Below, piece by piece: positions 48,624-48,866 of a stretch of 64,000 nucleotides of DNA. Each line of letters begins with the position of its first letter. Within the stretch, counting starts at the first letter, position 1. The position numbers and the translations under genes were made by a program. Source of the stretch: Variovorax ginsengisoli (GTDB taxonomy: Bacteria; Pseudomonadota; Gammaproteobacteria; Burkholderiales; Burkholderiaceae_C); assembly GCF_030486595.1 (NCBI RefSeq), contig NZ_JAUJZH010000011.1, forward strand, positions 124,001 to 188,000, in the 5' to 3' direction. The notes beneath the pieces were generated by a model that did no database searches, was not told the origin of the DNA, and worked only from the letters and a program-made list of their open reading frames with translations.

Positions 48624-48866
48624 ATGACCGGCTTCGACATCCTCCCCCTCGCAGTGGCCCTCCTCATCGGCATCGCCGCCGTGGGTTCGTGCATCGGCAT
48701 CGGCATCGTGGGTGCGAAGCTGCTGGAAGGCACGGCACGGCAGCCCGAGCTCAAGGACACGCTGCAGACGCTGTTCTTCCTGATCGCCGGCGTCACCGAC
48801 GGCGCCTTCATCATCGCCACCGGCATCGGCCTGTGGTTCGCTACGGCCAACCCCTTCCGCGGCTGA
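48624..48866 (+). CDS. Orphan F-type ATP synthase c-subunit-like protein
   Basis: 80-residue two-helix hairpin with the c-subunit pattern: a glycine-rich first helix ([10 protein letters not shown]), the polar loop ARQPE (Arg39-Gln40-Pro41), and a second helix with the ion-binding carboxylate Asp59 in AGVTDGAF. These align with E. coli Arg41-Gln42-Pro43 and Asp61. There is no second acidic/Ser pattern typical of Na+-binding rings, so protons are likelier. No other atp gene is nearby, so this appears to be an extra copy outside the atp operon. The ribosome site is weak (AAAGCGA). Confidence 0.8.

Follow-up and report, generated by a model that had tools for sequence, protein, structure and literature searches.

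An unlinked second ATP synthase c-subunit gene in Variovorax and related bacteria, with a conserved upstream palindrome and a candidate MmyB-type regulator

Variovorax ginsengisoli carries, outside its atp operon, a second gene for the c subunit of F-type ATP synthase. The product belongs to a conserved clade of its own, is under purifying selection, and retains intact key residues, and the gene is preceded by a conserved upstream element. Together these findings support an earlier suggestion, made from sequence alone, that the orphan gene specifies a functional second rotor isoform. For simplicity the gene is referred to here as atpE2 and its product as AtpE2.

We consider it rather probable that AtpE2 is an alternative c subunit that is made on a signal via a regulator and built into the only F1Fo of the cell, retuning the rotor. 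In the mechanism that we propose, an MmyB-type regulator would respond to a signal; its domain family prompts the guess that this may be a fatty-acid-like molecule. The regulator, acting on a palindrome centered near -43, would activate atpE2 from a weak sigma-70-like promoter and would control its own gene through the same palindrome. AtpE2 would be incorporated into the c-ring of the cell's single F1Fo-ATP synthase, either by itself or together with operon AtpE, and would alter the rotor through the proton site around Asp59, helix packing, and possibly ring size, coupling, or leak. The altered rotor would retune ATP synthesis to the inducing condition, and a small membrane protein, encoded just 5' of atpE2 in some species, might be part of the same response. 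The preserved residues and the absence of any other a subunit suggest that AtpE2 would join the ring of the only F1Fo and change its rotor. Ring incorporation, an effect on ring size, binding by the regulator, and the signal are all features that we infer. A sharper form of this proposal is a ligand-controlled rotor-swap switch, in which a dedicated MmyB-type sensor in bacteria of the Variovorax group induces an alternative c subunit that remodels the ring of the only ATP synthase; we regard it as a tentative possibility. It is conceivable, at a similarly tentative level, that the mixed or pure ring changes the H+/ATP ratio or the leak, making the system a bacterial counterpart of condition-dependent F1Fo gearing.

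The c-ring sets the number of protons spent per ATP, and, to our knowledge, its make-up is usually regarded as fixed within a bacterial species. If the proposal is true, these bacteria offer a natural system in which ring composition might vary with conditions, and whether ATP synthase is geared in vivo could become a question open to direct testing in a soil bacterium that grows readily. Variovorax and related carriers may rebuild their energy motor to suit conditions. The MmyB/MltR regulator family would gain a concrete candidate target in energy metabolism, together with a predicted regulon.

The orphan gene and its genomic setting

The window, the whole 64-kb stretch of DNA that was analyzed, contains atpE2 as an intact open reading frame on the plus strand (48624..48866). 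The sequence-only reading had described an 80-residue c subunit with an Arg-Gln-Pro loop and Asp59, and the open reading frame and the conservation of Arg39-Gln40-Pro41 and Asp59 bore this out. The 80-amino-acid product was assigned to the F-type c subunits by Pfam ATP-synt_C (PF00137; 45.3 bits, cut-off 24), NCBIfam PRK06876 (92.4 bits, cut-off 71), and TIGR01260 (65.1 bits, cut-off 43.95). Its predicted structure is a two-helix hairpin (helices 7-39 and 41-74; mean pLDDT 88.2). The closest PDB structures are bacterial c subunits, with those of E. coli, P. aeruginosa, and A. baumannii among the top; the five top matches had a probability of 1.00 and 47-51% identity.

Across the 86 contigs of the 7.8-Mb genome, which is rated 100% complete, PF00137 has two matches; a third c subunit is absent. 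The other c-subunit gene, the main atpE for which the sequence-only reading had proposed a search, lies beside atpB in a complete atpI-B-E-F-H-A-G-D-C operon on a different contig, and when the two copies were aligned their products were 63% identical. The possibility that atpE2 is a relocated sole copy of atpE was rejected because the complete operon has its own atpE. The a subunit is represented by a single PF00119 match genome-wide. As had been claimed for atpB, F, H, A, G, and D, tblastn searches with the genome's own operon proteins (E ≤ 0.01) found no relatives of AtpI, B, F, H, A, G, D, or C in the 64-kb window. Rfam and tRNA scans of the whole window likewise returned no matches.

A lower-G+C segment had been noted next to the gene, and it does exist. 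G+C at about 48.85-50.35 kb is 0.56-0.63, versus 0.62-0.78 in the remainder of 46-52 kb. A TauE/SafE exporter gene (49206-50039; PF01925, 137.9 bits) occupies this stretch adjoining atpE2 and is perhaps a separate insertion. The flanks of the orphan vary among lineages while the upstream element stays with it, and the lower-G+C segment is thus apparently unlinked to atpE2. No neighbor gene common to all lineages was found. In the group to which the window belongs, a UvrA-like gene lies upstream of the orphan. The paradoxus group has a large LVIVD-repeat-like gene and Liv-like transporter genes, and Pelomonas has small heat-shock-like genes (all of these labels were assigned by reading rather than by family search).

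A mobile origin was considered and rejected: 8 plasmid and 3 phage records match AtpE2, all at less than 60% identity, and none spans 80% of the query. Among phage records, those of Acinetobacter phage MD-2021a (H9 and H10) include a gene annotated as a host-like atpE, which suggests bacterial chromosome DNA within phage records.

Distribution, selection, and place in the rotor

Relatives within the genus commonly carry the orphan, a point on which the sequence-only reading had asked for a check: a homologue 79-100% identical to it was found in 28 of 36 same-genus genomes. Main-type atpE alone was present in 5 of the 36, one of these 73% complete, and no c subunit at all was detected in the remaining 3 (62-88% completeness). 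All 24 genomes from other families had a single c subunit, and none had the orphan. Whole-genome searches of named orphan-bearing genomes found exactly two c subunits in each (17/17).

A contig scan of named genomes gave at least 501 confirmed relatives, ordinary AtpE among them. The best 80 of these are loci in Variovorax, Xenophilus, Pseudacidovorax, Piscinibacter, Ideonella, Caldimonas, Aquabacterium, Pelomonas, Roseateles, and Rubrivivax, plus metagenome bins. A tree of 107 rows separated 64 orphans from 43 main-type AtpEs (a class set without a gene-by-gene check of operon neighbors, as was the class of 57 used below) by one branch, with a support of 100/100 and recovery in 200 of 200 bootstrap trees.

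The range of the orphan looks narrow, since in a class-wide sample of 370 genomes, with at most 15 candidates scored per genome, a match at E ≤ 1e-31 was obtained in the V. ginsengisoli genome itself only. Within the limits of this sampling, the orphan seems restricted to the Comamonadaceae/Sphaerotilaceae portion of Burkholderiales. A family sample yielded an orphan-type match in at least 31 of 300 genomes (bit-score cut 121), a count that may have missed some orphans with 18 candidates scored per genome. For one of these carriers, G486, the main-type gene was not found. Fifteen more family genomes have two or three c-subunit matches each, below the orphan cut (G333, G487, G522, G524, G548, G550, G561, G575, G604, G606, G613, G665, G670, G675, and G723). 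Second c subunits of other kinds may be present in these genomes.

The orphan is under purifying selection, as a dN/dS comparison foreseen in the sequence-only reading indicates. Within-group medians of dN/dS were 0.065 (group of the window), 0.092 (paradoxus group), and 0.093 (Pelomonas/Roseateles), whereas the median over all orphans was 0.29, above the 0.20 of main-type AtpE (values from our own Nei-Gojobori script; pairwise values are non-independent). It had been considered that relatives might carry only decayed versions. This is not the case: 153 of 153 orphan rows, in which the same place often appears under several locus identifiers, are 74-84 amino acids long and retain the RQP motif.

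The R39-Q40-P41 loop is invariant in the alignment of 64 orphans, as are E35, G21, G25, and G56, and Asp59 is retained in 63 of the 64. The exception is a metagenome-assembled copy (L126:6001-6240) in which Tyr replaces Asp59; this is either an assembly error or a dead copy. Ten positions set the orphans apart from main-type AtpE (L7, P8, L14, S22, F51, V57, T58, G60, A65, and G69), and four of them, V57, T58, G60, and A65, are close to Asp59.

The earlier suggestion of a different ion preference found no support. The Na+ ligands of the Fusobacterium and Ilyobacter c subunits, in the list given in the available portion of one source (PMC3692424), are Gln/Glu32, Glu65, and Ser66, with Thr67 and Tyr70 supporting. 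The AtpE2 equivalents, located by a 6-residue offset that holds at either end of the alignments with 1yce and 3zk1, are I26, D59, G60, A61, and I64, residues that are unable to act as those ligands. Thus, the ion site of AtpE2 is most likely a proton site, as judged from these aligned positions.

One alternative to incorporation into the synthase is that AtpE2 is a proteolipid outside the enzyme, forming its own ring or oligomer in a membrane stress response with a small membrane protein of the same regulon. Such a role would fit the location of the orphans, because searches with the eight other operon proteins found no atp gene near any of these best 80 loci (up to 6 kb per side), and the same eight queries do detect their genes at operon loci. 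It would also fit the finding that in some species atpE2 directly follows a gene for a membrane protein outside any Pfam family, as well as the differences around Asp59. However, the residues for F1 docking and proton transport are kept (R39-Q40-P41 and E35 in 64/64, Asp59 in 63/64), and a polar loop would not be expected to be necessary in a free proteolipid. We therefore regard a role outside the synthase as possible but unlikely.

It is less probable still that AtpE2 is a dosage back-up, functionally equivalent to AtpE and supplying extra c subunits when many rings are needed. The 63% identity with operon AtpE and the shared key residues are what would be expected of a back-up, but the ten type-specific positions differ consistently across genera, and a pure dosage copy would need no conserved sequence of its own.

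Upstream palindrome and candidate regulator

Pattern searches and upstream alignments revealed a perfect palindrome ahead of atpE2, ATGACCTGTCAGGTCAT (48508..48524, plus strand), which is the putative operator of an XRE/MmyB-type regulator. A -35-like box, TCGACG (48524..48529, plus strand), overlaps the edge of the palindrome, and similar boxes occur in the upstream alignments. A -10-like box, GACATT (48547..48552, plus strand), lies 17 nt past the -35-like box, a fixed spacing. Both are assigned putative promoter roles. The arrangement of palindrome ATGACCTnnnAGGTCAT followed by two short boxes at fixed distance was common across lineages in the upstream alignment. Both boxes of atpE2 are poor matches to the consensus, and a scan of 48170-49250 for a generic consensus promoter found none. 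The center of the palindrome would lie near -43 of a weak sigma-70-like promoter here, a position that fits an activator better than a repressor.

When up to 2 mismatches were allowed over the 12 fixed bases and 300 nt of upstream sequence were considered, the palindrome preceded 101 of 108 orphan genes versus none of 57 main-type atpE genes, counts in which near-identical strains were kept. Initial sorting by BLAST score had placed it before 98 of 104 genes classed as orphans and 3 of 61 classed as mains; four BLAST-sorted mains with an orphan-type LPLAV/VPLAV start, three of them with the palindrome, were then reassigned. In 99 of the 101 orphan genes having it, the palindrome lies 70-130 nt ahead of the start. 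Of the 98 orphans with the palindrome in that sorting, 97 have A as the second and T as the sixth base of the hexamer beginning 38 nt past the start of TGACCT. For seven of the 108 orphan genes no palindrome lies within 300 nt upstream. For two of these (L141 and L220) it is farther upstream, ahead of a membrane-protein gene, and three others (L158, L225, and L228) have the regulator and membrane protein with no clear palindrome.

Within the window the site at 48508-48524 is the sole exact match, with two more sites at 2 mismatches. The whole genome has only two exact sites, one at atpE2 and the other between the regulator gene and acnA, and four one-mismatch sites, one of which precedes a SnoaL-like gene and is followed by a -10-like box at the customary distance. 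Allowing up to 2 mismatches gave 47 sites versus 10 in a reversed control, most of them with no assignable promoter. A search of 41 genomes for a longer form, TGACCTNNNRGGTCATSGAC, found it in 23 of the 25 Variovorax and in none of the others, and TGACCTNNNRGGTCATSG was found in 15 of 17 named carriers. The reversed-pattern control gave no match in either the 41 or the 17 genomes.

The gene adjoining the second exact palindrome encodes the candidate regulator. It has both domains that define MmyB/MltR-type XRE proteins, a helix-turn-helix (HTH_31; 49.2 bits, cut-off 27) and a ligand-binding domain (MLTR_LBD; 93.1 bits, cut-off 26.3), and it is the sole homologue in its genome at E ≤ 0.001. A palindrome ahead of its own gene is the usual autoregulatory layout of XRE proteins. 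From the conserved sequence context, the MmyB-type regulator is predicted to bind the palindrome, to control its own gene through the same palindrome, and to switch on atpE2.

All 21 orphan-bearing genomes tested have a homologue of the regulator (E ≤ 1e-20), the best being only 38-44% identical in 4 of them. Orphan-free genomes had a homologue in 4 of 15 cases, close in G001, G006, and G085 and 44% identical in G043. Regulator and orphan are thus separable, and their co-occurrence gave a Fisher value of 2.3e-6 with kinship ignored. With up to 2 mismatches allowed and 400 nt of upstream sequence considered, a palindrome precedes 20 of 30 regulator homologues examined, ten having no clear one. 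In Rubrivivax pictus the regulator gene and atpE2 diverge directly from a shared interval that contains a palindrome with one mismatch. The regulator gene neighbors acnA in Variovorax and Xenophilus, and in Xenophilus azovorans a truncated-haemoglobin-like gene (label by reading) lies beside it. We considered acnA as a further target and rejected it: the palindrome lies between it and the regulator gene, but the acnA side has no -10-like box at the usual spacing, and the palindrome there may therefore serve the regulator alone.

The palindrome might instead belong to another transcription factor, with the MmyB-type regulator merely a fellow target. Regulator binding is deduced here from sequence context, and the four carriers with only a distant regulator (38-44%) would be easier to understand if another factor were responsible. 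However, the palindrome precedes 18 of the 20 regulator homologues with 55% or more identity to a query, in the XRE autoregulatory layout, and the orphan-free genomes G001, G006, and G085 keep both regulator and palindrome. That the palindrome stays with the regulator even in genomes missing the orphan is as expected of an autoregulated XRE protein, and control by another factor is accordingly improbable. The weakest alternative, that atpE2 is a relic of a lost second ATP synthase or duplicated operon, which the sequence-only reading had left open and which would suit a lone orphan in a genome with one a-subunit gene and no other atp gene in the window, is already refuted by within-group dN/dS of 0.07-0.09, by full-length copies with RQP in every row, and by the conserved upstream element, unless selection acted on something besides the protein, and it retains almost no probability.

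Excerpts of a paper on MltR (PMC3406030) describe the Chloroflexus protein crystallized with a fatty acid and its dimer as expected to bind palindromes. Members of the MltR/MmyB family described there and the regulator proposed here both have an XRE-type helix-turn-helix plus a PAS-like ligand domain; the family is linked there to antibiotic metabolism, whereas here one member is tied to a rotor subunit gene. The strings ATGACC, GACCT, and AGGTC are absent from the main text of PMC12565409, on XRE palindromes, in the portion available.

Small membrane proteins of approximately 140 amino acids form a family whose genes often have the palindrome upstream and sometimes lie directly 5' of atpE2 (examples are L286 and L302, on reverse strands, and L228 and others). 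In Ideonella sp. A 288 the regulator gene and the gene for a 145-amino-acid membrane protein diverge from an exact palindrome, and atpE2 follows the latter. The same order of regulator, palindrome, membrane protein, and atpE2 occurs in L140 and L220, with two mismatches in the palindrome, and the gene order recurs in L158, L225, and L228 with no clear palindrome. The start of atpE2 lies 12-47 bp past the membrane-protein gene in L141, L158, L220, L225, and L228. In Variovorax the two genes are at separate places, each with a palindrome. One form of the membrane protein has no Pfam or NCBIfam match. A role as an AtpI-type ring assembly factor was not supported by profile comparison (probability 0.5%). 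In the V. ginsengisoli genome acnA follows the palindrome beside the regulator (L257:3912-4879), and in the closely related G023 a membrane-protein gene is at that place (L286); this gene seems to have been lost from the regulator-adjacent spot in V. ginsengisoli.

Comparison with known systems

The protein family is already known; what is new is where the gene lies, that it is conserved as an additional copy, and how it is controlled, the separate control element being the new aspect of the orphan c subunit. Among the literature matches listed, which covered few subscription papers, none described a c subunit of these bacteria that is unlinked and under separate regulation, or a regulator or palindrome of atpE2. 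The excerpted text of PMC5709465 does not mention an orphan c-subunit system.

The operon AtpE proteins of A. baumannii, E. coli, and P. aeruginosa, for which structures are available, have the same fold, RQP loop, and ion-binding Asp as AtpE2. AtpE2 differs in being encoded outside the atp operon, in its separate clade, in its own palindrome, and in its type-specific residues near the Asp. Acetobacterium woodii also builds a single enzyme with c subunits of more than one kind. Its multiple c genes are all in the atp operon and its ring is a Na+ ring, whereas the second c gene here is unlinked and its product is without the Na+ ligands. A genome with an N-ATPase (alternate F1F0) operon likewise has a second c subunit, but assignment of AtpE2 to that type was rejected, its TIGR03322 score being 18.1 bits versus a cut-off of 130.85 and the genome having a single a-subunit gene.

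The closest precedent for outcome is in the fungus Podospora anserina. The portion of PMC4956034 available describes two structurally different c-subunit paralogues, Atp9-5 and Atp9-7, that are expressed in different cell states and with which enzyme rate and ATP yield differ. As here, two paralogous genes encode the c subunit; unlike here, the enzyme is mitochondrial, the regulation is unrelated, and the effect was measured, whereas for AtpE2 it would be a prediction. Photobacterium profundum SS9, according to the available part of PMC10054830, has two ATPase sets, the second used under particular conditions, in place of the lone c subunit seen here. The name atpE2 appears 34 times in that source, and sharing it implies no relation.

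The main-type AtpE of Variovorax itself comes in two quite different forms, which have WFATANPF or LFAFANPF toward the end of the protein and fall in separate parts of the tree (L003, L060, L063-L065, and L070 versus L061, L062, L066-L069, and L071). This hints that the atp operon, in whole or in part, has been replaced by transfer.
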